Assembly (NCBI GenBank): GCA_029226955.1
Contig: JAQXZA010000012.1
Span: 20,099-84,098 of the forward strand
Length of the DNA: 64,000 nt
Source of the DNA: Clostridia bacterium
Lineage (GTDB): Bacteria; Bacillota; Clostridia; Oscillospirales; Acutalibacteraceae
Reading direction: 5' to 3'
Made by a program: the position numbers and the translations under genes. Positions 29,008-60,752 of the stretch are shown here, in pieces. The notes below the pieces were generated by a model, which ran no database searches, was not told the origin of the DNA, and saw only the letters and a list, made by a program, of their open reading frames with translations. Position 1 is the first letter of the stretch; each line of letters begins with the position of its first letter.

Positions 29008-29430
29008 ATGGGAAATATTATACCTGCTTGGAAATTTTCAAAAAATAATATTTCTGGGCTATTAAAACCAATCATTTATTGTTGTCCATATGAAGGCATT
29101 GCAGATACAGCAGTGTCAATCAACCTGCTTTTAGCTAAGAAATTGGTTGAATGCAGATTAACCCGAAGGACAATGCGAATAGAGACCTTTTTTAATCAAA
29201 TCTTGAGTCAGTTGCCAGATGGTGCTGTAATCAAGGATTTTGATGTAATGTTTAATCCAAAATATAAAGTAGACGTGCTACGAATTATGACAGTTGCATG
29301 CAAAAAGAAACCATTCAGTGTTATATGGCCTGGAAAATGTGAAGATGGAAAGCTGTTCTATGCTGAAGATGGTTACCTTGATTTCAAGGTGTTCAATGTA
29401 GAAGAATACGATGTAACATGTGTTGTTTAA
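29008..29430 (+). CDS. brxF: BREX-3 BrxF-like protein (no visible P-loop)
   Basis: First gene of a BREX type 3 operon. The part from about residue 33 (SINLLLAKKLVE) to the end (DFDVMFNPKYKVDVLRIM, VIWPGKCEDGKLFYAEDGYLDFKV) has the strand order and the 'W.G....G.L.YA..G..D/EY' tail that I associate with BrxF, a small NTPase. BrxF proteins normally begin with a GxxxxGKT/S P-loop about 20 residues in; here the frame opens after a stop at 28975 and shows no such motif. So it may be N-terminally truncated or divergent. The gene ends 13 bases before brxC. Confidence 0.7.
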   Translation: MGNIIPAWKFSKNNISGLLKPIIYCCPYEGIADTAVSINLLLAKKLVECRLTRRTMRIETFFNQILSQLPDGAVIKDFDVMFNPKYKVDVLRIMTVACKKKPFSVIWPGKCEDGKLFYAEDGYLDFKVFNVEEYDVTCVV

Positions 29431-29443
29431 GGAGGAGCATAAA

Positions 29444-35619: not shown

Positions 35620-35631
35620 GGAGTTGAATAT

Positions 35632-36624: not shown

Positions 36625-36639
36625 TTGGAGGAAAGTGGA

Positions 36640-37200: not shown

Positions 37201-37202
37201 CT

Positions 37203-39875: not shown

Positions 39876-39878
39876 CAG

Positions 39879-41342: not shown

Positions 41343-42042
41343 AATGGTTGGATTATCCCGAAACCTGAAACTCCAATGGCTGAATAGGGTTGTAGAGCTG
41401 GTTTTGGAAGACTTAACAGAACAAGAAATAAAGGATCGGTTGAATGAGTATCTGAGTTTTGAAATTGAGAGTCCTACAAATATTCGTAAGACTAGAGAAA
41501 TCCTTATGAACATCTGGGTTTACGAAAACGAACAAGCCAATAAAATCAAGATGTCTGCGCTGGAGCTTATCAAGACATATCCTGAATATGATCTGGTAAT
41601 TCATTGGTGCATGATGATGGTTGCATATCCTGTTTTTGTGGATATGTGTAAGCTCATCGGTAAAATGGCAGAGTTCCAAGATGAAATCACTCTTGCACAG
41701 TTGAAACAGAAACTATTTGATGAATGGGGTGAACGTACCACGCTGTTCCATTCCATTGATAAGCTGGTAGCTACATTAAAAGCGTTGAATGTAATAGTGT
41801 GCGATAAGCCAGGTAAGTACCACATTAATACGCATAGAGTGAGTAACCCAAAAGTTATTTCATTGATGGTTTATACAATGATGATTGTGGACGATAGTGG
41901 TTATTACACCTTGAATGACATCAATTCGTCGGCTTACCTTTTTCCGTTTGATTACAAAATAGAAAAAGAAACTCTATTTGAAGACAGTAGGTTTGCAATG
42001 AATAATTTTGGAGGAGAATTGTCAATCTCACTGAATGACTGA
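41335..42042 (+). CDS. brxA: BREX protein BrxA (DUF1819)
   Basis: 235 residues, mostly helical, matching BrxA in size and place. It contains KIKMSALELIKTYPEYDLVIHWCMMMVAYPVFVDMCKLIGK, the recognisable core, and a winged-helix-like segment (LAQLKQKLFDEWGERTTLFHSIDKLVATLKALNVI). BrxA is a small DNA-binding protein needed for BREX. In type 3 it is the last gene, as here. The start overlaps pglZ. Confidence 0.87.
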   Translation: MAKMVGLSRNLKLQWLNRVVELVLEDLTEQEIKDRLNEYLSFEIESPTNIRKTREILMNIWVYENEQANKIKMSALELIKTYPEYDLVIHWCMMMVAYPVFVDMCKLIGKMAEFQDEITLAQLKQKLFDEWGERTTLFHSIDKLVATLKALNVIVCDKPGKYHINTHRVSNPKVISLMVYTMMIVDDSGYYTLNDINSSAYLFPFDYKIEKETLFEDSRFAMNNFGGELSISLND

Positions 42043-42928: not shown

Positions 42929-43504
42929 CTATCTGCACTCTTGACCACCGCCCCAGATGGATTTACCACCCATATGAGCAGTTTTATCGTGCGTTTCAAA
43001 ATCTACAAGTTGCATTTTTCCAACTTCTTCATTATGATGCCAAACCTTTCCGTCAGGTTTTTCTCCGTCTAAAATTTGCTCAATCTGGTCATCTGTAAAC
43101 TTTTCACGAAGAGAAGGATTTGCTTCAATTGCATCTTTTAACTGTTTGTTGCACTCTTTAAATTGTTTAGCATCGCTTTCTGCCAGCAATTCTTTCGGAA
43201 GTTGAGCATCAAAGTCGCTATCAAAAATCGGGAAAACACCCTCTATTTTTCTATCGCCTAAATCAATAATCTTTTTTTCAAATGGAACCCCGGTTTTTGG
43301 TTGAACATCACCTGCAAGATGTTCATTAGGACACTTAATATGCTCAACTGTATTACTTTCAAGCCTTTTATCTACATCGTATTTTGAGGGATCCTCTGTA
43401 TCCTGCTTTTGATTTACATCAATTCTCTTGTCAGGGTCAAAAGATTTGTTTTCAGAAACAGAGGGCATACTAACTTCATTCAATTTAACTGATTTAATAT
43501 CCAT
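42929..43504 (-). CDS. WHH-type HNH/Endo VII nuclease toxin
   Basis: 191 residues. The C-terminal nuclease domain has GVPFEKKIIDLGDRKIEGVFP, DGKVWHHNEEVGKMQLVD (the WHH motif) and THDKTAHMGGKSIWGGG, a signature of polymorphic-toxin DNases. The N-terminal 75 residues are charged and carry two copies of an (F/Y)DxDKR(I/L) motif (SFDPDKRIDV, KYDVDKRLES), probably a delivery or docking tag. No signal peptide is seen. Its ATG overlaps the HerA-like gene's stop (TAATG), so toxin, ATPase and dynamin-like gene form one operon. The cognate immunity gene follows. Confidence 0.87.
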   Translation of the reverse strand: MDIKSVKLNEVSMPSVSENKSFDPDKRIDVNQKQDTEDPSKYDVDKRLESNTVEHIKCPNEHLAGDVQPKTGVPFEKKIIDLGDRKIEGVFPIFDSDFDAQLPKELLAESDAKQFKECNKQLKDAIEANPSLREKFTDDQIEQILDGEKPDGKVWHHNEEVGKMQLVDFETHDKTAHMGGKSIWGGGQECR

Positions 43505-46500
43505 TATCGTAGACCTCCGTTTTCAGCCCATTTTTTCATATCTGCTTGATTACCAAGCTCCATGAATACATAATCGGTAATAACAGCTTGAATTATATCA
43601 CGGCGTGTCCTGTCATCTATTTCATGTATAAGATTATTAAGCAGTGCTTCTTCTGCCCGGTTTGTCCATTCAAAAGCGTCAGGATTATCATTATATGCTG
43701 AAATAACGGCAGATTTGACATTTGGGAACAATGCTGACATAATCGGAGCAAGCTTTGTCATTCTGGGTTCTTTTGGCGGTTTTTCAAGCAGTTTTGCAAT
43801 AGCTACCTGTATCGAAGATTTGATACCGTTTTCCTGAAGCATGGGAAGAATGTCTGTAAGAATTGTTTCACGGCTCTTTTTTGTGCCATTACTCAAAAGT
43901 TGTGCAACAGATACCATATGATCTGATTTGTGGTCAGATTTAATTTTCTTTTCACGCTGATATTTGTATGCAGTATCAGGCGTCTTGCACTTATCAACCT
44001 TACAGAGTACAGGCTGAATCCACTCATTCTGATAAACAGCAGCTACACCGCAAGGCAGTTTGGCAAGCTCAGTAATCTGGTTTTCGTTGAGATTTGCAGC
44101 CTTTCCAACAAGTTCTCTGTCTGAAATATCGGGAAGTCTCATTATAATCTTTGTATTGGTATTTCTGATAGCCGCCATATCCAAAAATCCCGGCGACTGG
44201 TCTGCGATAATAAAGCCTTCTCCGTATGTACGCATTTCTGCAATAGCATTTGCGATCATCTCTACACTTTTACCGAGAAGATTGGCTGTTTCCGATGTTT
44301 GTTCGGTAGATGTGCGTTTAAGCAGATTATGAGCTTCTTCAAGTACGGTAATATGTTTTAATGGAGCATTCATATCACCCTGTAACATACGATATTCTTG
44401 CAATTTCAGCACAAGCATCCCCATAATCAGCGACTTTGTTTCGCTTGAACCCACACGGCTTAAATCCACAATTACATTTTCATCAAAGAGAGCCTCCATA
44501 GAAATCTCATCGTCTGTGAAAATAAGACCGTTTATACCGTTTGTAAGAGAATTAAGTCTTGTAAGAAGCGAACCTTTATATGCACCTTTATTTTCGGTAT
44601 CATACTCACTGCTATCAATAATAGCCTTGACATTTCGGGCAACATCGGAGAACTGAGGATATAGATTATCACCATAAATATTTTCAGATTCGGTAAGATC
44701 CCAACCGCAATCTTCATAGGATTTTTCAACAGCGTTTTTGAGTACCGCAGGCATTGCTGCATACATAGGCCAGCAGACATTGAATATTTCAACAAGTCTG
44801 TCCAAATGTTCAAGAATGTGTATTCCTTTCGGAAACGAAAATGGATTTATTTTGAGAAGAGGAGAGATGTCAGGATTTGTTCCATAAACTGAAACATCCT
44901 TATGATTTCCGAAAACATTTTTGTATTCGCCTTTTGCAGGCTCAATAACAAGAAAGTTTGCTCCATTTTTTCTTGCCTGATTAATAATTCTGTATACGGT
45001 ATTTGATTTACCAGAACCTGTAGAACCTGTAATGAATGTGTGAGAAGCAAGAGAATTCATTTCAAGTGATACAGTGTTGTTTTCCTCATGATTCATATGG
45101 AAGATATGACCGAGTTTCAAGTATTGTGTATCACTTTTTGGGTTACTATATGTAACGATATTACGACCGAATTCCGCACATTCAATAACAGGCAAACCTG
45201 CGATTGATTTCTGTGGAAAGTTCAGCGAATATGCAAGTTCTTTACCAGAAAGACTTGTTGTCGCTGTTACTATAGACGGATAAACATTGTATGCTCTGTC
45301 CTCCTTTATCATTTCTGCATTTAACGCAAAGATAGGGTGTCGGAGTTCTTTGATATATCCTGCGATTTCCTTTGCAATATCTCGTTCTTCGTCAACAGTG
45401 CCTTTCCATACATTTATTGCTGATTTTGACATATAGGAGTCTTCACCCAATGTCAAAGCAAGGTAAGAATGAGCAACATTGTTGGCAACATCATAGTCCT
45501 CACTGAGTACATAAGCGGCAAAGTCCCACATACCAAGAGCTGTACTCTGTTCCAGACGCTTCATCTGATTTTCAAGCAATTCCAAAGCGTGCTTTACATT
45601 GAAATTTGTAAAGCTCTGGGTAATGCCTTCATTTTTTCCTATCATTGCTGTTACAGTAGATGACCTTGCAAAATTTGCACCAAAGTTCGCACCAAAATTA
45701 ACAGCTTTTGATACGCCTGATGTTGCTGCAAGAGATTTTGTAACGGCTTTTCCAAGAGTATTGGCAACAGCTGTACCTGTGTTCTTAGCAACAGTATTGG
45801 ATAAAGTATTGGTAATGCCCTTTGTAATTGTATCAGCAGCGGTTTTTCCGAGTGTTTTGGCTAAATTGCTACTCCAACCGTGAGATGAACTTTCTCCAAA
45901 TTCTACTGACTTATTAGATCCAATCTGTGCTGTAAAAGAACCGGGAATCACTCCACCTCCAGCTGTTGCAGAGACAGACTGTGATGAACTATACGATAAT
46001 GAAGAATTTACACTTTGACTGTCATTTTCTCCCTCTGATATAGTTTCACTACTGTTATCTCCCTCCATATGAGCTTCGCTATCAGACTCAGCCGTAGCTT
46101 CGCTGTGTGAAAGAGAGTCTGATTTGGACTCTGTCCTTGTTGTCGCCTCATTTTGAGTATTGGCAGAAGCATCCGTAATAGAGTTATTCTGACCATTCTG
46201 AATGCCTGCACTTGCACCAACATTAACTCCGACTGTAGCTGAGGAACCGATAGCTTGGTTTTCAGTATATGTAAAGTTTGTCTGCCAGGAAGCATAGGGA
46301 ACCATACCTGAATAAAGTTCTCCAAGTTTCAGTTTTCTTTCTTCTATATCCTGAATAGGTGTGGCAAGAAGTACAATCGTGTATTCTTTTTTCTTTTCGG
46401 TTGGAATAGTTCCATCAAGAAGCTTTTCAATAGTTTGACTGATGAATTTCTCGGACTTTTCTGTAGGAATATTTGAAGCAGTAGCTACAGAATACGACCT

Positions 46501-47082
46501 GTCATTCTTCATACAAGGAATAATGCCCATACCTTCGTCCTGCCATTCAGCACCTGGGAAGTTTCCTCTGATAGCTTCAATAAGTCTGTTTTTATACGAG
46601 TTTGTATTAACATTATTATCTGCATTGTCGGTATTTACAACGGCAAGATACACATCTGTACCTTTCTGTGTTCTGTTGAATACCAATGCGATATTGCAGT
46701 TTTCATTGGATAATACAGCATATACATTGACAAGCTTTTCAAGAGAGTTTTCCTTTTTGTCCTGAACCCATTTTGTAATTTTGAAATAGCGAATATTATG
46801 TTCGGGAATAAATTTTTCCGGATATTCAGATTCTTTTGTAACAGGTAAGTATAAATCCTTGATTTGTGGCAGATATGCATTAAAAATCTCCACACTGCTT
46901 GCCGCCATCATTCGCCAAGTCGTATCAATAGCAAGTTTGTCCTTCGGGTCAGGCTTTTCAAGGAGATATTCTTCTCGTTTAAGCTGTACTTCTTCAACTT
47001 GATTTGAACTTAATGCAGCTAACTTGGCAACTTTATTACCTGCTCCATTTCCGATTTTCTTTACAATATTTTTAATTCCCAT
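43504..47082 (-). CDS. HerA/FtsK-like ATPase with Ser-rich linker (copy 1)
   Basis: 1192 residues from the ATG at 47082, after GAGGAGG. Residues about 1-265 form a mixed domain of unknown type. Residues about 280-400 are Ser/Glu/Asn-rich (SLSHSEATAESDSEAHMEGD), followed by a Gly/Ala/Ser/Thr stretch. The ATPase core has Walker A ITGSTGSGKSNTVYRI near 685, VIEPAKGEYKNVF, Walker B ITVLEEAHNLL near 910 and EMRTYGEGFIIADQSP. The DUF87/HerA core usually forms hexameric DNA or protein pumps. It is a paralogue of the 50874 gene. It is coupled by overlap to the WHH toxin, so it may export, position or regulate that toxin. Confidence 0.82.
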   Translation of the reverse strand: MGIKNIVKKIGNGAGNKVAKLAALSSNQVEEVQLKREEYLLEKPDPKDKLAIDTTWRMMAASSVEIFNAYLPQIKDLYLPVTKESEYPEKFIPEHNIRYFKITKWVQDKKENSLEKLVNVYAVLSNENCNIALVFNRTQKGTDVYLAVVNTDNADNNVNTNSYKNRLIEAIRGNFPGAEWQDEGMGIIPCMKNDRSYSVATASNIPTEKSEKFISQTIEKLLDGTIPTEKKKEYTIVLLATPIQDIEERKLKLGELYSGMVPYASWQTNFTYTENQAIGSSATVGVNVGASAGIQNGQNNSITDASANTQNEATTRTESKSDSLSHSEATAESDSEAHMEGDNSSETISEGENDSQSVNSSLSYSSSQSVSATAGGGVIPGSFTAQIGSNKSVEFGESSSHGWSSNLAKTLGKTAADTITKGITNTLSNTVAKNTGTAVANTLGKAVTKSLAATSGVSKAVNFGANFGANFARSSTVTAMIGKNEGITQSFTNFNVKHALELLENQMKRLEQSTALGMWDFAAYVLSEDYDVANNVAHSYLALTLGEDSYMSKSAINVWKGTVDEERDIAKEIAGYIKELRHPIFALNAEMIKEDRAYNVYPSIVTATTSLSGKELAYSLNFPQKSIAGLPVIECAEFGRNIVTYSNPKSDTQYLKLGHIFHMNHEENNTVSLEMNSLASHTFITGSTGSGKSNTVYRIINQARKNGANFLVIEPAKGEYKNVFGNHKDVSVYGTNPDISPLLKINPFSFPKGIHILEHLDRLVEIFNVCWPMYAAMPAVLKNAVEKSYEDCGWDLTESENIYGDNLYPQFSDVARNVKAIIDSSEYDTENKGAYKGSLLTRLNSLTNGINGLIFTDDEISMEALFDENVIVDLSRVGSSETKSLIMGMLVLKLQEYRMLQGDMNAPLKHITVLEEAHNLLKRTSTEQTSETANLLGKSVEMIANAIAEMRTYGEGFIIADQSPGFLDMAAIRNTNTKIIMRLPDISDRELVGKAANLNENQITELAKLPCGVAAVYQNEWIQPVLCKVDKCKTPDTAYKYQREKKIKSDHKSDHMVSVAQLLSNGTKKSRETILTDILPMLQENGIKSSIQVAIAKLLEKPPKEPRMTKLAPIMSALFPNVKSAVISAYNDNPDAFEWTNRAEEALLNNLIHEIDDRTRRDIIQAVITDYVFMELGNQADMKKWAENGGLR

Positions 47083-47093
47083 AAATACCTCCT

Positions 47094-49664
47094 CTAATCG
47101 AGTGTCCTCCAAGACATCAATTCTTCAATAGCATTTAATGAGTGCTGAATTGTAGATTGGTTATCTTCTAATTCTGTGATTTTCTCAGTTTCTTCCTTGA
47201 TCATATCAGACATATCTCTTAATTTAGGATTATATTCAGTGATATTTTCCTCAATAACAGCGGAAAGACTTTCTTTCCATGTCCTGAAACTGCTGTAACT
47301 GCTCTTGTTCATTTCAACTGCCATTTCTGTAATGACTTTGGATATTCTGTCGTTATAGCTGTTTGCAAGTTTTCGTATATTCAGCTTTTCGTCGTCAATT
47401 AAGCGTATTCCTAAAAGATTACCTCTTAAAAATCTTGCCTTTATGAATACATCATCTGCGTCATCGTTAAAGGAGAGGGGTTGATAGTTCATAATGATTT
47501 TTGAAAGCTCATCTCTCTGCGTAGAGGATAATGCATCTGAATCTGTTATAATGTCAACCAAAACATTTCTTAAAGATTGTGCATTCTGCTGCCAGTGCTC
47601 TTTTATTGAATTGCTGAGAATTTCCTGTGCAAGAATGGTATTCTTTTTATACTGCTCGATTACGATTTGTAAAAGCTTGTCAGAAGTTTCTTTATCAATC
47701 TCTTTTTCAGCAAGAGCTTTTTCGCTCTTGCTTTCTTTTAAAGTTGTATAGTCACGAACTAAATCATCTTTCATTTTGCCGATCCGATCTAAGAATTTAC
47801 CTTCACCACTGAAAATTTCTTTTATATTCTTCTTGGTGTTTAAGGAAATCTTATTTTTGGAGTCTTCATAATCTTTTTCCTGAATTGAAAAATGACGCTC
47901 TTCTGTATTTTCCTGGTGTAAAGTTTCAGTGATTTTTTCAAGTGCATTAACTTCATAGCGGAATGTCAGATTTTCAGAAATGAAAGATTTGATAAAAGAC
48001 TTTGATTCCTTGTCAAATTCGTATTCGGAATCTTCAGAAGTTTTTTTGAGATTATCGATTAAGATAGCCTTGGCATTTTCAAGTTCTTTGCGTCTTGCTT
48101 CACGCGTCCTCTTTAAAGACTCTGTTCTGGATACAATTCTTCTGTCTGTTTTTTCGATAACTTGTTTCAAAAACATATAAACCATCTGACATTTGTTATA
48201 TGCCGCGTGTTTGCTTGCAAAATTCTCCATTTCCTGCTCCACACAATACAGACCGCTGTTTGCATATATGAGGTTCGGACATTCTGAAGAATATTTCTCA
48301 ACATTTTTCTTTATCTGATATGGCATAATATTGTATTTATACAGAGTAGCATAGTCTTCATCTTCAGGATTATTATACATTTCCTGCTGCAAACGGTATA
48401 TTTTGCGATAATGATTATCCAAAAGAACTCCGTTATTTTTTGCACCTAATCCCATAATAGAAGAAACAAAGTATATTCCGCTTGCATACATTTTTTCAAT
48501 AGAGTTATATTCAAGTATTTTCTGTTCTTTTTTCTTTGAAAAGCCGCCTTCGTCCAAATCGGAAATGTCAGCCCTATTCATAATAATCATTGTAAAACGC
48601 TTGTCTAAAGCCTTAATGTTGAGTATTTTTTCACATAAACTTGCATTGTCTGTAGTATCAATGGACTCATAAGTCGAAACCCATACAGGAATACCATTAG
48701 AGAAACCTTCCAGTGCCTCTTCTAATACCTTTGTATGTTCTATGTTTGACTCAGAATTAGAACCCGGTGTATCAAATATAACAAAGTTATTATATGACTG
48801 ACCTAAAACACCGCATTTTGAAAAAGGAATTTCCAATTCAATGACATTACTTATAACAGTTTCATCTTTGTATTTTTTTTCATATCCGTTAATATGTTCA
48901 AGAGCAATTCTTACGAAAGCATTCATATTGTTTGTCTTGTTTTCTTTTATGGAATTAAAAATATCCTGAACAAGTTCATTTTCTACATTACCCGTCAAAA
49001 GACGATACTCCATTCCTTCAAAAAGAATTACAAACAATTCATTTTTGTATGAAAATTTTATTTTTGCATTATCAGGATACTTGGAACGCTCTATTTTATA
49101 TATTTTAGCTGTAACCGGGTCGCCACCGCTTGGTAATATCTCAGCACCAATAAGAGCATTAATAAAAGTTGACTTTCCAGCACTACAATTTCCAAATACA
49201 CATATAGGGATAATATCTTTAAGTGCATCAGATACCTTGTTCAAGTCTTTAAGAACATTCATATCATCTTTAATGATTTTTTCAATGATAGGTTGAACTG
49301 TTGAAAAAATTTCTTTTATCGGCTCAAATATAATTCTTGCATTTTCTAAAATATTCTGCGTTCTGGAAAGTACAATTTTATCATTGATACCATCTTCTTT
49401 GCATACATTTTCAACTTCGGTGTATTCGTCCTGTGTACCCTCAAATTGTATTTGTATTTTATCGCCGTCAATGTAATACTCTGTAATTATCGTATCAATT
49501 ATTTCTTTGATGCGAAAAGGAAGAAAGTTTCTTCCGGATTCGTACTCTCTCAACTTGCTGTTTATATTGCTTTCTTTTATATTTTCCCACTGATGAGATT
49601 GTTCTTTATAGCTGAAAAATTTAATTTCTCTTGTGTATGGATTACTGATAATTTTGATTATCAT
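47094..49664 (-). CDS. Dynamin-like large GTPase
   Basis: 856 residues from the ATG at 49664; 49673 and 49676 are alternative ATGs nearer the GGAG site, and the track start at 49760 is unlikely. GTPase motifs: G1 FGNCSAGKSTFINAL, a switch I Thr in GGDPVTAKIY, G3 VIFDTPGSNSESN and G4 IMNRADIS. The C-terminal half is long helices and coiled coil (ESLKRTREARRKELENAKAIL), as in bacterial dynamin-like proteins that remodel membranes. There is no clear paddle or TM helix. The HerA-like gene starts 11 bases later. A membrane-directed role in the same system is likely. Confidence 0.85.
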   Translation of the reverse strand: MIIKIISNPYTREIKFFSYKEQSHQWENIKESNINSKLREYESGRNFLPFRIKEIIDTIITEYYIDGDKIQIQFEGTQDEYTEVENVCKEDGINDKIVLSRTQNILENARIIFEPIKEIFSTVQPIIEKIIKDDMNVLKDLNKVSDALKDIIPICVFGNCSAGKSTFINALIGAEILPSGGDPVTAKIYKIERSKYPDNAKIKFSYKNELFVILFEGMEYRLLTGNVENELVQDIFNSIKENKTNNMNAFVRIALEHINGYEKKYKDETVISNVIELEIPFSKCGVLGQSYNNFVIFDTPGSNSESNIEHTKVLEEALEGFSNGIPVWVSTYESIDTTDNASLCEKILNIKALDKRFTMIIMNRADISDLDEGGFSKKKEQKILEYNSIEKMYASGIYFVSSIMGLGAKNNGVLLDNHYRKIYRLQQEMYNNPEDEDYATLYKYNIMPYQIKKNVEKYSSECPNLIYANSGLYCVEQEMENFASKHAAYNKCQMVYMFLKQVIEKTDRRIVSRTESLKRTREARRKELENAKAILIDNLKKTSEDSEYEFDKESKSFIKSFISENLTFRYEVNALEKITETLHQENTEERHFSIQEKDYEDSKNKISLNTKKNIKEIFSGEGKFLDRIGKMKDDLVRDYTTLKESKSEKALAEKEIDKETSDKLLQIVIEQYKKNTILAQEILSNSIKEHWQQNAQSLRNVLVDIITDSDALSSTQRDELSKIIMNYQPLSFNDDADDVFIKARFLRGNLLGIRLIDDEKLNIRKLANSYNDRISKVITEMAVEMNKSSYSSFRTWKESLSAVIEENITEYNPKLRDMSDMIKEETEKITELEDNQSTIQHSLNAIEELMSWRTLD

Positions 49665-49713
49665 AGCTTTCATCATCTCCAGAAATAATTTTAATATACA
49701 TAAATTTATTCTT

Positions 49714-49742
49714 ATAATATCACATTTTTCGTCCAATTGCAA
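49714..49742 (-). promoter_or_regulatory. Candidate promoter of the dynamin-HerA-toxin operon
   Basis: On the minus strand TTGCAA (49737-49742) and TATTAT (49714-49719) have a 17-base spacer and lie about 50 bases before the likely start. The 300-base divergent region 49665-49972 has no gene and serves both operons. Confidence 0.45.
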
Positions 49743-49902
49743 CAAATAAACTGGTGTCAAATGTAAATAATATGTTCTCGTTTTATCGACCTGATTTATT
49801 TCGCAAAAAAGATTCTGCTTTTTAAGAAAATACGGATTAAAATTTCGTTGATAATAAATGTATAATATTTTTAATGATGTTGTATTTTTTTTGATAAAAT
49901 TG

Positions 49903-49972: not shown

Positions 49973-50854
49973 ATGGGTTTTAAGGAAAAAGAATTTAAAG
50001 AAAAACTTATGGTAGCTTTGGATGATCCCGAAGTAAAAAATAAGATTCGACAGATATTATCTTTAAATCAAGAAAATAGTAATAACTTTATAAATCACTA
50101 TCAATATGAAAGTCCTAAAAACAGTAACTTAATAAGTGAATATAAAGAAATTAAGCAAAATTATGATACACTGAAATCAAAATACGATGCACTACTAAGT
50201 AAATGTCAAAAATTAAAAAATCAGAATGATTCATTAGATAACAAAATACAAACTTTAAATAATAACATCAACGCAATTACAGAAGAAAAGAATAGTTATG
50301 AAGCAAGTTGTAAAAAACTTCGTCAAAATAATCAAAGCTTACAGGATAGTGTCAACGAAAAAGAAAACATTATATCTGAAATATCCGAAAAAGCTGAAAA
50401 GACAGCTCAGACTCTTAAAGGCTTTATAGCTGTATTTGGAGAACCTGCTGAATATTTTAAACGATACTTAAACATAAGACCTGATATACGAAGAATTTTG
50501 TCAACATTTATTTCTGATGAAAATGCAGTTTTATTTATTTCTTCATGTTCAAGGTTTGACAACCTTGAACGACTTTGGGATTATATTAAAACTATATTGT
50601 ATGATGAATCCTGTCTTGATGATGCCAAAATATTGTCAGATATTTTTTACTACTTTTTCGGTATTTTCAATCAGAGTATGAAAAACGCTTATTATGTTCT
50701 TGATGAAACAAGGATAGGTGACCGTTTTGATGATGAAAAGCACTCAAAAGGTCCGAACAGTAAAGCGTCTGGAACAATATCCAGAGTTTTGCTTAAAGGT
50801 TTTATATCAGTAAATACAGGGGATTATATTCGTCCGACCATAGTCGTAGTATAA
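49973..50854 (+). CDS. Coiled-coil protein with GrpE-like C-terminus
   Basis: 293 residues. Residues about 55-145 are a long coiled coil (LKSKYDALLSKCQKLKNQND and similar). A helical middle follows. The last 45 residues, GDRFDDEKHSKGPN, ASGTISRVLLKGFIS and GDYIRPTIVVV, follow the pattern of the GrpE beta-wing ('GD.FDP..H', 'GTI..VLQKGY', 'RVIRPA.VVV'). GrpE releases ADP from Hsp70, and an Hsp70-like gene ends this same operon, so I infer a dedicated exchange-factor-like role. The protein is longer and more diverged than true GrpE, so the match needs a profile search. An AGGGGGAA site precedes the ATG. Confidence 0.6.
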   Translation: MGFKEKEFKEKLMVALDDPEVKNKIRQILSLNQENSNNFINHYQYESPKNSNLISEYKEIKQNYDTLKSKYDALLSKCQKLKNQNDSLDNKIQTLNNNINAITEEKNSYEASCKKLRQNNQSLQDSVNEKENIISEISEKAEKTAQTLKGFIAVFGEPAEYFKRYLNIRPDIRRILSTFISDENAVLFISSCSRFDNLERLWDYIKTILYDESCLDDAKILSDIFYYFFGIFNQSMKNAYYVLDETRIGDRFDDEKHSKGPNSKASGTISRVLLKGFISVNTGDYIRPTIVVV

Positions 50855-50873
50855 AATACAGGAGATGTATAAA

Positions 50874-53800
50874 TTGAATACTAATGATTTTGTAAAAAAA
50901 TATCTTTCCAGTACCAACCTTATGTATGTATCGGATAAGATAAGTATTGATTCATCTGAAGAAATAGACTTGATGCATTTATGCCTGTACCGTGTTAATG
51001 AAGTCTGTTTTGACGATAAAGCTCCAAGAAAAGAAGCACTGGAAAATGTAATGACTTCTTTAAGAATTCCGGGCATAAATGTTGTCTTTCTGATTGTAGG
51101 CGAAAAAGATAATGTAAGTTTCTATTATGGTGTTTCAAAAGATAAAACATCGGATTTTAAACAGGAACTCGGCATTTATGAAATAGGAAATACTATTCTT
51201 CAGCCAGCAATATTGGGTAATTTCAGGGGCAGTAAAGTTTCTGAGATAGATCCAGATCAAAAGAAGAAAATACTCGAACAAATTAACAGTCTGAAATACG
51301 GCAGAGTTATCGAGGGAGTTCCGGGTGCAAACAAAGATGATGAAAAATTTCAGGGCATTGACCGACTTGTAAATGTTATGTACGGTTCTGAATTTTGCTT
51401 TATGATTATTGCAAAACCACTTGAACTTGATTCTATACTTGATTTGCAGGAAAATCTGTACCACTTATATACTGATATATTATCTCCGCTCGCAAAAATG
51501 AATATACAGTCAAGCAGCGGTGAAAGCAACGGCACTTCTACAAGCCATACAGAAGGTGAATCAAAAGGCGAAAATAACAGTTCAACAGATTCTTCCGGAA
51601 CAAGTCACTCGGATTCAGATGGAACCAACACATCTGATTCAAAAAGCGAAAATGATTCAGACTCAAAAAATCGAAGTGATTCTTCAAGTGAAGAAACAGG
51701 AAGCAGTTCTACATCTCACTCCACTCAGGAAGGAACATCACACACAAGGGGTCGTAGTAAAACAACCGGAACAAGTGAAAGCCACACAGACGGAACAAAT
51801 ACAGGACATTCGGATACCAAAGGAACATCAACCGGTTCAAGCAAAAGTGACACAACATCTGACAGTAAAACAAAATCTACTTCCAGTAATACATCATTTG
51901 AAATTAACAACAAGGAAGTTCAGGACTGGATTAAATATCTTGACGAGGTGCTTTTTCCAAGAATTGATTACGGTAAGGGCAAAGGTCTGTTTATTACTTC
52001 AATGGCTGTATTTGCAAATAATAAGAGCGTCCTTGAAAAATTACAGAATACTGTTATAGCACTCTATTCGGGAGAAAACGGCAACAGAGTTCCACTGAAA
52101 GCTACGGATATGAATGATTTGTCAACTCAGATGGTAAAGTCATTCTGTTTGCCGCAAGGAAAAATCTATTTTACAAATCCTGATGATGAATTAAAAGCAC
52201 GAATTGCAATGTCGCAATATATAGATAAAACGGGAAATGCATATCTCGGAAACTGGATTACAACAAATGAATTGGGACTTATTGCAGGACTTCCACAAAA
52301 AGAAATTGTAGGTCTGGCACTCAAAGAAGAAGTAGAATTTGGTCTTAATACCGACAACAGCATAAAAGATGAAAACAAAATTGAGCTTGGTCATCTTATT
52401 CAGAACGGAAATATTCTTGAATACAATAATGTATATCTTGATAAATCCGTTCTTGACCAGCATATATTTGTTTCGGGAGTTACAGGAAGCGGAAAGACAA
52501 CAACCTGTCAGCAGATATTAAATAAAAGTAATCTGCCATTTCTGGTAGTTGAACCGGCAAAAACAGAGTACAGAATAATGAAGAAAGATTATAACGATCT
52601 TCTTGTTTTTACGATAGGAAACAATAATGTTGCACCGCTCAAAATGAATCCGTTTGTTTTTTATCGGCACGAAAGTATAACATCAAGAGTCGATATGCTT
52701 AAAGCCTGTATAGAATCTGCCTTTGAAATGGAAGCTGCCATACCGCAGATTATCGAATCCGCTATGTATAAAAGCTATGAGGACTACGGCTGGAACATTT
52801 CGACAAATCAGAACAGTATGTTTGATGACCCGTTTGAAGACGGTTCAGAAGCATTTCCTACACTTGATGACCTTATACGAAACACTAAAATTGTAGTTGA
52901 GGAACAGGGCTTTGATGCAAGATTAAAAAATGACTACATAGGTTCAATCAATGCAAGACTTTTAGGACTGCTTGCAGGAAACAAAGGACAAATGCTTAAT
53001 ACACATCAGTCAATAGATTTTGTGGATTTGCTTGATAAGCGTGTTGTTTTTGAGCTTGAAGATATACGAAGTGCGTCTGAAAAATCTCTTATTATGGGCT
53101 TTATACTCATAAACCTTTCCGAAGCGATAAAAGAGAAGTATCGTCAGTCAGGTGCATTTAAACACATTACGCTTATTGAAGAAGCACACAGACTTTTAAG
53201 CAAATGTTTGCCAGGTGACGATCCGAATAAAAAGCACGGTGTTGAAATGTTTTCAGATATGCTTGCTGAAATACGCAAATACGGAGAATCGCTTGTTATT
53301 GTTGACCAGATACCGAATAAGCTGACTCCTGAAGTTCTGAAAAACACAAACACAAAAATCATTCACAGGATTTTCGCATCAGATGATAAGGATGCTATCG
53401 GAAATACTGTAATGCTTGATGATTCTCAAAAGAAGTTCCTGTCAAATCTTAAAACAGGGGAAGCAATCTTCTTTTCAAACGGATTTGACAAAGCGGTTCA
53501 GATTAAAATCAATCCGTCTTACAATACATCAGATAAAGTTATTGATGATTCTGAAATTATTGATACGGTGAGAGATTATTATTCAGTACATTACAAGAAA
53601 AATCTGATTATGGGTCTTAAACTTTTTGACGGTAAACCATCAGTCGATGAATATAACAGCATTAAACTGTTAAGTGACGGACTGGCTGATGAATACTGGA
53701 AATATGTAGTCAAATACAATGTTCCACTGAAAATCAAAAAGGAAATCAAAGCCGTTATGAATAGAATTGGTTCAGACAGATTTAATGAGTATCTTTGGGA

Positions 53801-53948
53801 GTATATTATATGCAAGCAAAAGTATTTATTACATCAGGCGAAAAACGGCAGACAAATACTTAACAACATTATTACTGACAGTTTGTCAGATAACGATACT
53901 TTGAACGAATTTTCAAAATATTTCAAAAAACAATCAGGAGGAATTTAA
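50874..53948 (+). CDS. HerA/FtsK-like ATPase with Ser-rich linker (copy 2)
   Basis: 1024 residues from the TTG at 50874, 9 bases after CAGGAG; the ATG at 50865 touches that site and is unlikely. An N-terminal domain (about 1-210) is followed by roughly 130 residues of almost pure Ser/Thr/Gly/Asp/Glu (SSTDSSGTSHSDSDGT and similar). The ATPase core has Walker A VSGVTGSGKTTTCQQI near 535, VEPAKTEYRIM, Walker B ITLIEEAHRLL near 765 and AEIRKYGESLVIVDQIP. The order and motifs match the minus-strand HerA-like protein, so they are paralogues that may form a mixed or paired ring. Confidence 0.82.
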   Translation: MNTNDFVKKYLSSTNLMYVSDKISIDSSEEIDLMHLCLYRVNEVCFDDKAPRKEALENVMTSLRIPGINVVFLIVGEKDNVSFYYGVSKDKTSDFKQELGIYEIGNTILQPAILGNFRGSKVSEIDPDQKKKILEQINSLKYGRVIEGVPGANKDDEKFQGIDRLVNVMYGSEFCFMIIAKPLELDSILDLQENLYHLYTDILSPLAKMNIQSSSGESNGTSTSHTEGESKGENNSSTDSSGTSHSDSDGTNTSDSKSENDSDSKNRSDSSSEETGSSSTSHSTQEGTSHTRGRSKTTGTSESHTDGTNTGHSDTKGTSTGSSKSDTTSDSKTKSTSSNTSFEINNKEVQDWIKYLDEVLFPRIDYGKGKGLFITSMAVFANNKSVLEKLQNTVIALYSGENGNRVPLKATDMNDLSTQMVKSFCLPQGKIYFTNPDDELKARIAMSQYIDKTGNAYLGNWITTNELGLIAGLPQKEIVGLALKEEVEFGLNTDNSIKDENKIELGHLIQNGNILEYNNVYLDKSVLDQHIFVSGVTGSGKTTTCQQILNKSNLPFLVVEPAKTEYRIMKKDYNDLLVFTIGNNNVAPLKMNPFVFYRHESITSRVDMLKACIESAFEMEAAIPQIIESAMYKSYEDYGWNISTNQNSMFDDPFEDGSEAFPTLDDLIRNTKIVVEEQGFDARLKNDYIGSINARLLGLLAGNKGQMLNTHQSIDFVDLLDKRVVFELEDIRSASEKSLIMGFILINLSEAIKEKYRQSGAFKHITLIEEAHRLLSKCLPGDDPNKKHGVEMFSDMLAEIRKYGESLVIVDQIPNKLTPEVLKNTNTKIIHRIFASDDKDAIGNTVMLDDSQKKFLSNLKTGEAIFFSNGFDKAVQIKINPSYNTSDKVIDDSEIIDTVRDYYSVHYKKNLIMGLKLFDGKPSVDEYNSIKLLSDGLADEYWKYVVKYNVPLKIKKEIKAVMNRIGSDRFNEYLWEYIICKQKYLLHQAKNGRQILNNIITDSLSDNDTLNEFSKYFKKQSGGI

Positions 53949-53949
53949 A

Positions 53950-54684
53950 ATGGGTATTTTTGGTAGTATAGTAAGTGGTATAGGCAGTGCACTCAGTAGT
54001 GTAGGACATGCAATATGCAGCGGCATATCTCATATATGCGGTGGATTAGGAAAACTTGGAAGTGGTATTTCCAGCTTTGCAGAAAAAGCTATCGGAATAG
54101 GGGAGAAATTTTTTCCGCATTTAGAAACACTGGAAGTTCTTAAATTGGCTGTTCATATTATTGTTACAATAGCTGAAGCATTGGGACTTAAAGAAAAAGA
54201 AAAAGACTCTCCTGAAGAAATAGCTATGAAAGCAGAAGAAGCAGATAAAAAGCCGGAGGATTTTGAATCTACGGAAGCATACATCAAATACCTCCAAAAC
54301 GAAATTCAGCTTGACAAAGAAAAAATGGAAAAACTTACTCCTGAGGAAAAAACCGAATATGCAGTAGTAGGTTCAGCAATTTATCTTAAAGCGGCTGCTG
54401 AAAAGTTAGGTGTTGAACCGATTGACGCTCCTATTATTATGGATTTTGCAAAAGCAGGTATAGATCCGAAAGAAATGGTCAGTATTATCAAGGAGCTTAA
54501 AAACAATGGCATAACAGATACAAAGTCAATAAGCGATTATCTTCACGGTCATGCACAGGATCTTAATACATCTGAAAAAGTCGAAAAATCCATTTTTGAC
54601 GGTATCAAAAATATGAACCCTGATATGTCGAAAAAAGATGTTTATGATAAAATTTCCGACATAGAAAATGCAGTAGGATACTGA
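53950..54684 (+). CDS. Gly/Ser/Ile-rich amphipathic N-terminus protein (244 aa)
   Basis: Family not recognised. The first 45 residues, GIFGSIVSGIGSALSSVGHA then ICSGISHICGGLGKLGSGISSF, form a repeated small-hydrophobic pattern suited to an amphipathic or membrane-inserting segment. A second hydrophobic helix (LKLAVHIIVTIAEALGL) follows. The remaining 160 residues are charged and helical (SPEEIAMKAEEADKKPEDFE; EAYIKYLQNEIQLDKEKMEKL). It starts 1 base after the HerA-like gene with a strong AGGAGG site. It may be the membrane pore or substrate of the neighbouring ATPases; this is a guess. Confidence 0.6.
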   Translation: MGIFGSIVSGIGSALSSVGHAICSGISHICGGLGKLGSGISSFAEKAIGIGEKFFPHLETLEVLKLAVHIIVTIAEALGLKEKEKDSPEEIAMKAEEADKKPEDFESTEAYIKYLQNEIQLDKEKMEKLTPEEKTEYAVVGSAIYLKAAAEKLGVEPIDAPIIMDFAKAGIDPKEMVSIIKELKNNGITDTKSISDYLHGHAQDLNTSEKVEKSIFDGIKNMNPDMSKKDVYDKISDIENAVGY

Positions 54685-54694
54685 GGTGAATTAA

Positions 54695-55222
54695 ATGACT
54701 GAATATAAGCCGTCGATAATGAGATGTCTTTTTCTGAAAATCAAGAGTGATGTTTTTACTGTTATCTTTACGGATACATATCACATACTTACTTTCGATG
54801 GAGAAAAATACACAACATACAACAATAAATTCTGGGAACGCTTTAAAAATCGTGTATCTTACCTTAATGAACAAGAAAATGACTTTTGCTTTGTTTCAGA
54901 CGATGAAAAATGGGATATTCCGGAATGGATAACAAAGTCAGCATGTAATACCACTGAATCTATGTGGAACTACAACACGCTTGCTGACGCTTTGAATGTT
55001 TTACAGCTTAACTGTAATATGTACATAAAGGATTTGTACGGTGACACAGTATATAACTATCGTTCAACTTTTCCTGAGAAAAAATATGAGCTTAAAATAA
55101 ACTATATGGCAAAGCAAAAAAATAAAGATAATACAAAACGCAATAATAATTCAGGTGTTTCAGAATTTGAGCGATATTTCCGCAATGCACTGATTAAGGA
55201 TAAAGAAAGGAACAAAATCTAA
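54695..55222 (+). CDS. Hypothetical protein (175 aa)
   Basis: No family recognised. It is a mixed alpha/beta protein rich in aromatic residues (TDTYHILTFDGEKYTTYNNKF, DDEKWDIPEWI), with a Lys/Asn-rich basic tail (KQKNKDNTKRNNNSG). No signal peptide or transmembrane segment is seen. Its stop (TAA, 55220-55222) directly abuts the ATG of the Hsp70-like gene, so the two are translated together. It could be an adaptor or co-chaperone for that protein, by position only. Confidence 0.55.
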   Translation: MTEYKPSIMRCLFLKIKSDVFTVIFTDTYHILTFDGEKYTTYNNKFWERFKNRVSYLNEQENDFCFVSDDEKWDIPEWITKSACNTTESMWNYNTLADALNVLQLNCNMYIKDLYGDTVYNYRSTFPEKKYELKINYMAKQKNKDNTKRNNNSGVSEFERYFRNALIKDKERNKI

Positions 55223-56177
55223 ATGGATACAAATAAGGTTACAAGAGTCGAACTTAAAGGAAGTATATTGAACAATATTTCAAATGCATTTTATATAAAT
55301 TTATTAAGGGAAATGCTAAATAATATTATCACTTCCACTTTTGACACGGTATTCAGTCAGAAGTGGGTGCCTGTTAGCGGTCACTACTATACACCACGGG
55401 TTGGTTTGTTTGTCGAAAAAGCAAACAGTTACCCTAATTCCGGTTATTCACGTTCAGCACTCTTTGATATTGCAACAAGAGAAATGAGTGAGAAAGAAGT
55501 AACTAATCTTTTTAAAATAAACAAAGCGGATTGTCCGATAACGAATGCTATTAAAGCTTCATACTCATATAGAGGTCATCACTATATTCAATTCGAGTCG
55601 GGAAGTTTAATATTTGAAAGTGGAGAGAGTAGTAGTTGGCGTGACAACGATTGCATAAAAATTGCAACGGCTGTGTGTTCAAAAACAAAGTTCAAACAAT
55701 TAGTTCTGTCAGGAAAAATCCGTCTTGAAGGCAGTGATTATAAAACTATAAATGATATTATCGATTTTATGGTTAAAAAATCCACTGACATTGATAATAT
55801 GGACAGTAATGATTTAATGGTACTGGCTAAAAACCTGAAAATAGATAAAACCGCATTACAACAAACAAACGAAATGATAAAAAAGGGCATAAAGCTTGGT
55901 GTAAATGCGGAGGAATTTTTCAAAAATGAAATACTTTCTTGTGATGAAAAAAGAGCGGAACTTGAAAAATATGATTCAAAATGCCTTGAAGATGTTAATC
56001 TCGGTCACTGGGAACTCTGGAATAATAATCTGAAAAATGCTGTTATTACCGCTGATTTAACTACTCCTCTTATAGCAAGAAATCCTGTTTCTGATGTTCA
56101 TTATGACGGAATAATAGGTATAGACTTTGGTACAAAAAGCACAATAGTATCCTGCCAGAACGGTAAAAACAAAACTA
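55223..56177 (+). pseudogene. Hsp70-like ATPase, 5' part (split by IS630)
   Basis: Encodes residues 1-318 of a protein of about 965 residues. The first 295 residues are an N-terminal extension of unknown fold (MDTNKVTRVELKGSILNN; ASYSYRGHHYIQFESGSLIF), absent from ordinary DnaK. The actin-type phosphate-1 loop DGIIGIDFGTKSTIVSCQ follows, where Hsp70 proteins normally start. The frame is then cut by the IS at 56178 and ends 6 codons into it. Joining 56177 to 57461 restores NKTRLLRIGIGQ without any gap. In the present state the truncated product lacks almost all of the ATPase. Confidence 0.85.
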
Positions 56178-57458
56178 GTATTTCATCCTTTAATTAACTC
56201 GACTTTTTGACAGGCAGTGTATCAACAATGATTTCTTCCGATACATCAATGTCATCAAGATTATATTTCCAATGGAACACAATAGGTTCTTCATTTATTT
56301 CTGCAAAATATTTGTAGATTCGATTAGTAAGTTCCTCCTTAGATTTGACACGGATACCTCTGAGCATCTGACGTGTCATCTTGCTAAAGAAACCTTCAAC
56401 CATATTGAGCCATGATCCATGTTTGGGAGTGAATACAAATTCGAATCTTCCCGGTACGGTCGTCAAGTATTTTCTGGTCGCCTCTGATGTATGAACTTTA
56501 AGATTATCGAGTACTATGCGCACTTTGTCTCCTTTTGGGTACTTGTTGTCTAATAGCTTCAAAAATTCAATGTATTCCTTGCTGCTGTGCTTGTCTCTTA
56601 CAAGAGGAATCGCTTCTCCTGTTTGAAGATCAATTGCAGCTAATAATGAAAGAGTACCCAAACGTTTATATTCGTAATCTCTACTGATGGTCGAATGCTT
56701 CTCGTCCGGCATTAAATCATCTGATGTTGCTGCAATAGCCTGTATTCCTGGCTTTTCATCATAAGACAGCACATGAACAGGTGTATCATCAGATACAATA
56801 AGCTTTCCAGCTTCATCAAACTGCATTTCGAGCTGTTTATACACAAGCAGGACATTATGCATTTTGGAATCAAAATCAGGATCTCGGTTCTCACAGTAAT
56901 AAGTTATTTTATGTGGCTTTATATCTGCCGCATCAAGAATCTTATTTACTGTACTTTTATGAATGGTGGAAAGTCTTGTGTATCCAGCTGCTTCGGCAGT
57001 TTTATTAATATGTGAAGTCAGCTTAGCATATGTCCAGGTTTCAGCAGCATATCCAAAATCAATTGGTTTCTGGCAGGCAATGTTAATAATCCAAGCTTTT
57101 TCTTCGTCTGTAATCTCAGCATTTCTGCCACGGCCAGGAGCATCAAAGAGTGCTTTTTCAATGCCGCCTTCTTTAAACTTTTTTAGGCAAAGCATGACGC
57201 TGCAGCGGTTAAGACCTACTTTATCAGCAATTGCATCTATTGATACGGCATCCGCACGTAATAATAGGATTCGTGCTCTTGTGACTGTTTGAGCCTGAAT
57301 TGTTCTAGCACGAGTTTGAAGTTCGAGATATTCTTTTTCTTCCTTACTAAGTTCAATTGATGATGCTCTTTTTCCCATGAAAATGTCCTCCAAAATCTTT
57401 ATAAGAACATTATAGCACAGCTTTCTAATATAGTCGAGTTATTAAAAAGATATTATAC
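56178..57458 (-). mobile_element. IS630-family insertion in the Hsp70-like gene
   Basis: A 1281-base element flanked by TA on both sides (56176-56177 and 57459-57460), the target duplication of the IS630/Tc1/mariner group. The ends are imperfect inverted repeats: the outer CTAGTAT and inner TAACTCGAC blocks occur at both ends in opposite orientation (23 of 29 positions agree when aligned). It contains one transposase gene. The clean TA duplication and restored host frame indicate recent insertion. Confidence 0.88.
56194..57378 (-). CDS. IS630 transposase
   Basis: 394 residues from the ATG at 57378, after TTGGAGG; the track start at 57393 lies before that site. The N-terminus is a pair of helix-turn-helix domains (SIDAIADKVGLNRCSVMLCLKKF). 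The DDE catalytic core has VHVLSYDEKPGIQA (first Asp), RIVLDNLKVHTS (second Asp) and TPKHGSWLNMVEGFFSKMTR (Glu). All three acidic residues are present, so it may be active. It is read opposite to the gene it interrupts. Confidence 0.92.
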   Translation of the reverse strand: MGKRASSIELSKEEKEYLELQTRARTIQAQTVTRARILLLRADAVSIDAIADKVGLNRCSVMLCLKKFKEGGIEKALFDAPGRGRNAEITDEEKAWIINIACQKPIDFGYAAETWTYAKLTSHINKTAEAAGYTRLSTIHKSTVNKILDAADIKPHKITYYCENRDPDFDSKMHNVLLVYKQLEMQFDEAGKLIVSDDTPVHVLSYDEKPGIQAIAATSDDLMPDEKHSTISRDYEYKRLGTLSLLAAIDLQTGEAIPLVRDKHSSKEYIEFLKLLDNKYPKGDKVRIVLDNLKVHTSEATRKYLTTVPGRFEFVFTPKHGSWLNMVEGFFSKMTRQMLRGIRVKSKEELTNRIYKYFAEINEEPIVFHWKYNLDDIDVSEEIIVDTLPVKKSS

Positions 57459-57460
57459 TA

Positions 57461-59403
57461 GACTTCTTCGTATAGGTATAGGACAGCTCAGCAAACGGGC
57501 AGAGCTAAAACACTATGAAAACCCTACGGTTATGGAATTTATCAGTCTTGACAGATTTATGAAAGCATATAATAATGAACAGGGCAGACCACATACATCA
57601 ATTCAGGATCTTACTGTATCGCATAAAGCCTACAACAGCATGAAAAACTGTGAACAAAGTGATTTGTTTTATTCGTTTTTCTATGATATAAAGCAATGGT
57701 GCGGTGACGGAGAACGATACAAACAAATCAAAATTATTGACCAGAATAAGCAAGAACACATATTGCCAAAATATCTTGATATAAAAGATAACGAGTTTGA
57801 CCCTGTTGAAATTTACGCATATTATCTCGGACTTTTTATAAATAATATGCGTAACGGGATATACATTAATTATATACTGTCTTTCCCAGTTACATACGAA
57901 AAAGCGGTTAAGGAAAAACTTCTGAACAGCTTTACAAAAGGTATCAAAAAATCCTTGCCTGACGCAGTTCTGTCCGACAACAATGTTATGAATAAATTTA
58001 AAGTAAGACAGGGAATAAGTGAGCCAGCCGCATATGCAATATGTGCACTTAAAAATTTCGGCTTGAATCCAATAGGAAATCAAAAAATATTCTATGGCAT
58101 TTTTGATTTCGGCGGCGGTACAACCGACTTTGATTTTGGTCTTTACAGATGTGCTGATGAAGAAACGGAAGACAGATACGACTATGTGATCGAACAGTTT
58201 GGTTCTGAGGGCGATAAATTTCTTGGCGGTGAAAATCTTCTTGAACTTCTGTCCTTTGAAATTTTCAAGGCAAATCAGCACAACCTTAGATATAAGAGTG
58301 ATGAAGAACCGGGCTATTCATTCTTTAAACCTACCGAATGTGACGACTTTGCCGGCAGTGAAACGCTTATTTCAAATTCACAGGAGGCAAAAAGAAATAC
58401 CAAACAGCTTATGGAGGCTCTTCGTCCGATATGGGAGGGCATAGTTGACTATAAAGATAAAAACAATACCCAAGCTCAAAAGAACGAAAAAACTTCAACT
58501 AAATATTATACTCATGAAAGCGGATATATTCTGAAAAACGGTCAGGAAATTTTCCAGTCAGGAAAAATAATGGTCGATCTGTTTGATAAAAACGGTAAAA
58601 GACATCCTGGTGTTGCGTTGGATATCGTGAACAAAAGCAGTAATATCAATGTTGATATATTCGGTATATTAGAAAGAAGAATACAAAAAGGCGTAAACAA
58701 CTTTTTTGAGGCGTTAAAACTTTCGTTTGACAACAGAATTTCTGACGGTCAGGATAATATTCATATTTTTCTTGCCGGAAATTCATCAAAATCTCCAATT
58801 CTTCATAAGTGTTTTATTAACACTATGAAATTGCACAGTGATAAAATATCTGACGGACGAGAAAAAAATCCAGCCAAATATTTCAAATTATATTATCCGC
58901 TTGGTACACCGGAAGCAATAAAAATTCAAAAAGAAAACAAAGTAGACGTTGATCTTAACGATGTAATGATGCCAACAGGAAAAACAGGCGTTGCCTATGG
59001 TCTGATAGAAGGCAGAACCGGTGGAAATATAAAGGTCATATCCAGCATACCCGCCGGAAAAGAAATAAGGTTCAATTACTATGTCGGCAGAGCCAAAAGA
59101 GGTGCTTTCAAGGTTATACTCGACAGAAACATTGAATATGGTAAATGGGTAAAATTTATTGATGCAGGTCTTGATGAGTTTGAATTGTACTATTCGGATC
59201 TTCCTGAATCAGCAAGCGGCTCTTACAGCGTTGAAAATATGAAAAAGAAAATCCGTATGATAGATTATACCGATGATGAAGCAGATATTTACATAAGAGC
59301 GGTAGCCCCTTCAAAAATAGAGTATTCCGTTGCCAAAAGTCCAGAGGACGCTCAGAATGGCAAATTCTTATGCGATACAGTTGTTATTGACTTAAACGGC
59401 TGA
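57461..59403 (+). pseudogene. Hsp70-like ATPase, 3' part (split by IS630)
   Basis: Continues the frame of the 5' part: RLLRIGIGQLSKRAELKHYENP, then YILSFPVTYEK. The phosphate-2 loop FDFGGGTTDFDFGLY is at about residue 534 of the joined protein. The adenosine-type loop IHIFLAGNSSKSPIL is present, and a C-terminal beta-rich region ends VVIDLNG. The track's start at 57532 is an internal ATG. The fold is clearly Hsp70/actin-like, but there is no typical EEVD-type tail or DnaK substrate lid. With the GrpE-like protein at 49973 it suggests a dedicated chaperone cycle in this operon. It is the last gene of the plus-strand operon. Confidence 0.85.
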
Positions 59404-59677: not shown

Positions 59678-60752
59678 TTACTCGTTTAAAAAGTTATCGT
59701 GCAGCTCTTCAAGCTTACTTGCTACTTCTGATTGTTTATTCGGATATAAGTGCGAGTAGGTTTGAAGTGTTGTTTCGATATTCTCGTGTCCGAGTCGTTC
59801 GGATATGAGAAGCGGGGAAAAGCCAAGTTCAATCAGCAATGATGCGTGACTGTGTCTGAGGTCATGTACTCGTATCTTCTTGACATTTGCTTTTTTGCTG
59901 TACTTTTTCATTCGTTTCCACAAATAATATTTGTTGAACGGAAACAGTCGTTGCTCAGAAGACAGATTATAAATCTTGCTTGCGTAGTCTTGTATCTCTG
60001 TCATCAGGAATGAAGGCAAGGTAATTACTCTTTTGCTCTTTTTGGTCTTGGGGGTGAGTATCAGGTCTTTACCTTTGTACCGTGCGTAGTTTTTATTGAT
60101 TTTTACAGTACCGTTTGTAAAATCAAAATCGGATATATTTAGTGCGAGCATTTCGCCGGAACGCATACCTGAATAATACAGCAGCATAAACATCACGTGA
60201 GCGTGTATGTCATCAAACAGCATTGATGAACGTATTAAATTCTTCTTGCGTCCAGAATTGCATATTGTCAGCGTTCTTTTTTCCCATACTTCCGCAATCT
60301 CTTGCCGGGTTACTTTTCAATCCGTAATACTTGACGGCAAAGTTGAAAATTGCCGACAGCTGATTGTTGATAGTTTTGAGGTAAGTTTCTTTGTAGTTTT
60401 CGGGTGAGGATATAAGCTCGGTCTGCCAATTACGGACTGTTGTCGCCGTAATTGTGTTTATAGGCATATCTCCAAAGAACGGCAAGAGTTTAGTATTTAT
60501 CATAAACTCTTTGTTTGACAATGTGGTCGGCTTGATTCGTGGGGCTATATCATCTTTGTACAGTTCGACAAGGCTTCTGAAAGTCATTGAGCAGTCAGCA
60601 GAGGATTTGCGGATAAATTCGTTTTCCCACTCTTTTGCCTCTCGCTTGGTAGCAAAGCCTTCTTTCTTTTTACGCTTACGTTTGCCTTGCCAGTCGGTAT
60701 AGTAAAAGCTACAATACCATTTGCCGGTTTCTTCATTTTTATATTGTGGCAT
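59678..60752 (-). pseudogene. int: Tyrosine integrase, frameshifted
   Basis: Two frames form one integrase. MPQYKNEETGKWYCSFYYTDWQG to EEFNTFINAV (arm- and core-binding domains) is read to 60213. DDIHAHVMFMLLYYSGMRSGEMLAL to the end (catalytic Arg, HDLRHSHASLL, LGHENIETTL and Tyr in YSHLYP) is read in another frame. Removing one base from the AAA at 60214-60216 joins them as INAVDDIHAHV, giving 357 residues. It closely resembles the intact integrase at 26910. The 3' end faces the guaA-type attachment copy, so this is the best candidate for the enzyme using that site, if not disabled. Confidence 0.85.

Follow-up and report, generated by a model that had tools for sequence, protein, structure and literature searches.

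An IS630-family insertion splits the Hsp70-like gene at the end of an uncharacterised five-gene operon

The window, the 64,000 nucleotide stretch of DNA that was analysed here, contains a five-gene operon that ends in a gene for an Hsp70-like protein. This gene spans 55223–59403 and is interrupted by an IS630 element. The locus therefore raises the question of whether the two pieces were a single gene before the insertion and, if so, what has become of the protein and of the system to which it belongs. The operon order, all on the forward strand, is a coiled-coil protein of 293 aa (49973–50854), a HerA/CedD-like ATPase of 1027 aa with a Ser-rich insert (HerA1, 50865–53948, recognised by family scans and relatives), a small protein of 244 aa with a Gly/Ser-rich N-terminus that is conserved beside HerA1 (p244, 53950–54684), a small protein of 175 aa that is conserved between p244 and the Hsp70-like gene (p175, 54695–55222), and the Hsp70-like gene itself. 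The four genes upstream of the Hsp70-like gene are intact in the window. It is highly probable that transposition of an IS630 element into a CTAG site has split the last of the five genes, which would leave the strain with no working Hsp70-like ATPase and the operon with its chaperone step missing.

The insertion sequence

A complete IS630-family insertion sequence of 1281 bp is present at 56178–57458, with limits that were confirmed base for base by script. It is recognised by the family of its transposase, its ends and the TA duplication that flanks it. The left copy of the TA target-site duplication is at 56176–56177 and the right copy at 57459–57460, both read from the sequence and found by script. 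The left terminal inverted repeat (56178–56204) and the right (57432–57458) match in 21 of their 27 outer bases, and their local alignment score is 17, whereas the highest score among 2000 shuffles is 14. Removal of the IS and one TA, joining 56177 to 57461, gives an in-frame sequence of ...NGKNKT-R-LLRIGIGQ... and 965 residues followed by a stop. The original prediction of an exact insertion, with TA on both sides, inverted-repeat ends and a reading frame of 965 codons that is restored when the element is taken out, was therefore correct; overall its facts were right and its caution sound.

The transposase is encoded on the reverse strand. Its open reading frame (56194–57393) is 399 aa long from a TTG at 57393, however the ATG at 57378 is the likely start, as in relatives, giving a gene of 56194–57378. 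It matches the NF033545 IS630 model with an E-value of 1.4e-67 (228 bits, cut-off 100) and PF13358 DDE_3 with an E-value of 2.1e-23 (83 bits, cut-off 28.6). The frame is intact and two relatives share the D-D-E motifs (YDEKP, VLDNL, and VEGFF) with little or no change. A promoter-like TCGACT-17-TATAAT sequence, TG-extended, lies within the right end of the IS on the reverse strand (57409–57437). This is probably the transposase promoter, as judged by a consensus match only in a region where the number of such sites is near chance. The own assembly, a draft of 150 contigs, has this one full IS copy, the other copies amounting to one diverged 87-base fragment at 72%. It had been suggested that the IS and transposase look functional; the intact frame and conserved D-D-E agree with this, but with one full copy to judge from, function is plausible rather than more. 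The element shares its DDE_3 transposase, TA duplication, inverted repeats and CTAG preference with the IS630 family (IS630, ISY100; Tc1/mariner superfamily), of which it is an ordinary member.

The Hsp70-like protein and its probable partner

The pieces of the Hsp70-like gene have no match in Pfam, the NCBIfam DnaK model reaches 16.4 bits on them against a cut-off of 648, and searching the sequences of the PDB with the Hsp70 profile gave no match. Alignment by hhalign of the Hsp70-like profile to 18 DnaK sequences has an E-value of 4.4e-5 and a probability of 69%. A model of the intact homologue from locus L008 (pLDDT 70, pTM 0.54) was used for a fold search, in which the best matches are DnaK, Hsc70, and BiP (E 7.5e-14) and nearly all of the top 50 are Hsp70 chains. 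As modelled, the protein has the Hsp70/DnaK fold. The actin/Hsp70-type ATPase motifs (phosphate 1, catalytic Lys, and phosphate 2) are present in the profile alignment, where GIDFGTKST aligns with phosphate-1, the K of DIKQW with DnaK K70, SEP with E171 of the EP motif, and DFGGGT with phosphate-2 (D194/T199). These residue numbers follow the established numbering of E. coli DnaK. The protein differs from DnaK in its length of ~965–1000 aa, in a variable N-terminal region of ~240 residues, and in falling below Pfam recognition.

The likeness to the pairing of Hsp70/DnaK with GrpE, which begins with the ATPase motifs and the fold, extends to a GrpE-like partner in the operon. Comparison by hhalign of the C-terminal domain family of the coiled-coil protein with GrpE has an E-value of 3.7e-7, where the best of 100 column shuffles is 0.023 and reversed GrpE gives 0.58. 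The top eight PDB fold matches for a model of the window protein are all GrpE chains, these being individually weak (best E 3.9e-3). Pfam GrpE (PF01025) does not reach this protein, either among its own Pfam matches or in the search of its own genome at E<=10, and it is therefore named GrpE-like and not GrpE. An ordinary canonical GrpE is encoded elsewhere in the genome. On the profile and fold comparisons, the coiled-coil protein is probably a nucleotide-exchange factor. This suggests that the Hsp70-like protein probably goes through a true chaperone cycle of ATP with a partner dedicated to it, and in this respect the GrpE-like finding matters more than the insertion.

What the insertion removes

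The IS interrupts the ATPase domain beyond its first beta-hairpin, with phosphate-1 on one fragment and all of the other catalytic motifs on the other. The 5' piece (55223–56177) contains the variable N-terminal region and the phosphate-1 motif, and its reading frame runs into the IS, where it gains 6 IS-encoded residues to reach a total of 324 aa before a stop at 56197. The strain could still make this fragment. The 3' piece (57461–59403) contains the rest of the ATPase domain and the C-terminal part, and this 646-codon remainder, having neither a phosphate-1 loop nor a good start, would not be expected to provide a working Hsp70-like ATPase. No second Hsp70-like copy was found in the draft assembly of the own genome in the searches of the genus genomes and the sample of 399 genomes of the phylum. 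Because phosphate-1 has been cut from the other catalytic motifs and there is no other copy, the Hsp70-like ATPase function is very likely to have been lost.

The original prediction held that the system may be disabled at its Hsp70-like component. This is likely, should the system need its Hsp70-like protein, since no other copy is present in the genome. The machine concerned is uncharacterised, is made up of several genes and is intact in related bacteria; here the insertion strikes the sole copy of one of its parts. The window strain can thus be seen as a natural mutant, and intact relatives (L008, L012, and the G636 locus) are preferable for study of the operon. The missing step would most likely be a chaperone cycle, driven by ATP and GrpE, in which a client is remodelled or loaded for the HerA-type pump, which would itself be part of a defence or translocation machine.

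It is unlikely, yet deserves some weight, that the 324-aa fragment or the remainder of the operon keeps a function without the Hsp70-like protein. The Hsp70-like gene is the last in the operon, so that the intact upstream genes should be unaffected in cis, and a plasmid locus with a DUF2357 gene has relatives of HerA1 and p244 but none of this Hsp70 family. However, the other loci with HerA1, p244, and the GrpE-like gene also have the Hsp70-like gene, which is broken in L055. Loss of a working component is the better reading of the split gene.

Target site and age of the insertion

The reconstituted target is the sole CTAG in the Hsp70-like gene, being 1 of its 235 TA steps. A preference of IS630 for TA within CTAG is attributed to Tenzen and Ohtsubo (1991) where their work is cited in PMC2170065. 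ISY100, an IS630-family member, inserts by cut-and-paste into TA, and IS630/Tc1-mariner elements are cut-and-paste (PMC2170065). The nearest copies of the IS that were found are relatives in L036 (IMG/VR), with a transposase that is 81% identical, and in L004 (another genome of the same family), with DNA that is 71% identical. Both have the same ends and the same context, with CTA to the left of the IS and TAG to its right. A diverged IS fragment on contig C143 likewise has ends like those of the window IS and the same CTAG context. The CTAG target and the matching ends and contexts in the relatives indicate that the insertion in the window is a genuine IS630 transposition and, as an event, a routine one. 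The element would have moved by cut-and-paste into the TA of this CTAG, duplicating the TA and splitting the gene.

There are no stops in either piece of the Hsp70-like gene across 965 codons. Given the fraction of substitutions that would produce a stop, and with indels ignored, this corresponds to a neutral divergence of no more than ~2.1% (95% bound). The absence of stops supports a recent event, as had been claimed in the statement that the operon was intact until recently, and the reading frames are consistent with this. The nearest intact Hsp70-like homologue is ~58% identical, too distant to give a direct view of the empty site. A 26-base empty-site pattern has no match in viral contigs.

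Precise excision could restore the gene in a fraction of the cells, making the IS a reversible switch of the phase variation kind. The exactness with which the frame is restored, the cut-and-paste mode of the family and a transposase that looks intact are all in keeping with this, but excision by cut-and-paste often leaves footprints, no excised copy was seen in the viral contigs, and nothing suggests regulation. A switch is therefore improbable, and a simple disruption is preferred.

The gene before the insertion

Homologues of the Hsp70-like gene were taken from eight loci in genome contigs, five genomes of the same genus (the window's own included), five more genomes in the sample of 399 of the phylum, and one Acinetobacter plasmid. 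All eight of the loci, and further genomes, have a single ORF that covers both of the window pieces with one residue between them. In the per-locus alignments that reach the junction, the last residue matched by the 5' piece is k and the first matched by the 3' piece is k+2. Likewise, an alignment of eleven homologues across the junction, all of which run through it, has exactly one column between the two pieces. The residue in this column varies among the homologues, and the split codon of the window, AGA, would give R. Relatives of the Hsp70-like protein were found in two plasmids and in none of the phage records and viral contigs. On these alignments the pieces were one gene before the insertion, and both extra junction residues and a two-protein design, which the original prediction had named as the findings that would overturn it, are excluded.

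That the pieces are naturally separate proteins, or that homologues have extra residues here and nothing is broken, has very little probability: the 3' piece does have an open frame of 623 aa from its first in-frame ATG at 57532, but inspection of the sequence upstream of this ATG showed nothing like a ribosome-binding sequence, every homologue spanning the site is one ORF, and the IS lies between the phosphate-1 motif and the remainder of the ATPase. An assembly chimera can be given hardly any credence either, for although the assembly is a draft and IS elements often cause misjoins, the single full copy, exact TA duplication, in-frame flanks, and the CTAG target of the family would all need to have arisen by accident.

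Related operons and known systems

The operon is of more interest than the insertion within it. All or most of its five genes recur in L005, L008, L011, L012, and G636, and rearranged versions are present in L052 and L055. On a plasmid of Acinetobacter piscicola (L037) a rearranged version is accompanied by a WYL regulator, another Hsp70-like gene, a HEPN gene, and a short dynamin-family gene, after which comes an integrase. The combination of a GrpE/Hsp70-like pair, a HerA-type ATPase and two small genes is found repeatedly within Bacillota and also on a plasmid of Acinetobacter. In G636, G962, and G1090 the GrpE-like/Hsp70-like pair instead adjoins genes whose features are VgrG-like, PAAR-like, and tube-like.

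The pair is thus common to HerA-type and contractile-injection-like operons, and from this a hypothesis can be framed, and put to the test, for a system that is as yet uncharacterised. This would be a mobile machine in which the GrpE/Hsp70-like pair powers or loads either a HerA-type ATPase with p244 and p175 or a contractile-injection-like apparatus, the window strain being a natural chaperone knock-out. It is a tentative proposal, held with slightly more doubt than belief. The BREX-like island upstream of the operon, and the WYL regulators and integrase in its relatives, suggest that the operon may have a role in defence or translocation.

The tested family and defence libraries do not name the system of the operon, and the literature search found no paper that describes this gene set. 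PADLOC 2.0.0 gives only matches of HerA-type ATPase models to the ATPases and weak coiled-coil matches, and assigns the Hsp70-like, GrpE-like and small genes to no named anti-phage system. A relative of HerA1, 45–48% identical over the ATPase part, and one of p244 adjoin a DUF2357 gene on a plasmid of Photobacterium damselae. This locus fits the description of the Type III-A CoCoNuT 'EccE3-HerA' extension, in which an EccE3-HerA ATPase is accompanied by a small helical protein (PMC11090510). In contrast, there is no McrB-like GTPase and no DUF2357 among the scanned proteins of the window operon, and the window Hsp70 family is not detectable in Photobacterium proteins. CoCoNuT membership was therefore rejected, HerA1 and p244 being held in common but the Hsp70 family and the core genes not. 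Predicted GTPase-centred conflict systems have HSP70 and GrpE genes side by side (PMC7159879). These are likened to the window operon by their described gene content, and differ in having a TRAFAC GTPase core where the window has a HerA-type ATPase.

Several of the related loci have features of their own. In L018 (234–15129), L051 (9564–20000), and L054 (583–12275) the GrpE-like/Hsp70-like pair directly adjoins contractile-injection-like genes, which encode VgrG-like, PAAR-like with an AHH nuclease and Imm11 partner, and tube-like proteins and a large sheath-sized protein. A contractile-injection link for the window strain itself was rejected after a sheath gene was sought in its genome; within the genus only G636 has one. 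G636 also encodes a protein of 876 aa that has a DFGTSNTT motif of the actin/Hsp70 type. The Hsp70-like gene of L055 (10713–13299) is broken by an internal deletion of ~107 codons and a frameshift, with HerA1 and p244 intact alongside. If this is not an assembly error, it is an independent loss in a similar operon. Three tandem Hsp70-like genes are present in L007 (2–8676), the last two separated by a GrpE-like gene, and there are two Hsp70-like genes in L052 as well as in L037. Similar small proteins are encoded 3' of the Hsp70-like gene in L006 (2542–3123), L007 (4761–5258), L012 (8541–8758), and L019 (6021–6530). That of L019 is a DUF6273 protein (Pfam); no such protein was seen in the window.

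Neighbouring genes

A divergent operon on the reverse strand at 42929–49760 encodes a dynamin-like GTPase of 888 aa, a HerA-like Ser-rich ATPase of 1202 aa, and a protein of 191 aa that contains a Colicin-DNase/WHH domain. A pair related to this operon is found on contig C4 of the same genome (39% and 66% identical). The BREX-like island is at 29420–42042 and contains a DUF6079 protein, a DNA methylase, a protein that has a nucleotidyltransferase domain and another that has a Cap15 cyclic-dinucleotide receptor domain, a BrxHI-like helicase, and PglZ. The presence of a Cap15 domain within a BREX-like island looks unusual. On the other side of the Hsp70-like gene, at 59678–60752 on the reverse strand, there is a tyrosine integrase in two overlapping frames, split at ~60213–60223 by what is apparently a single frameshift.
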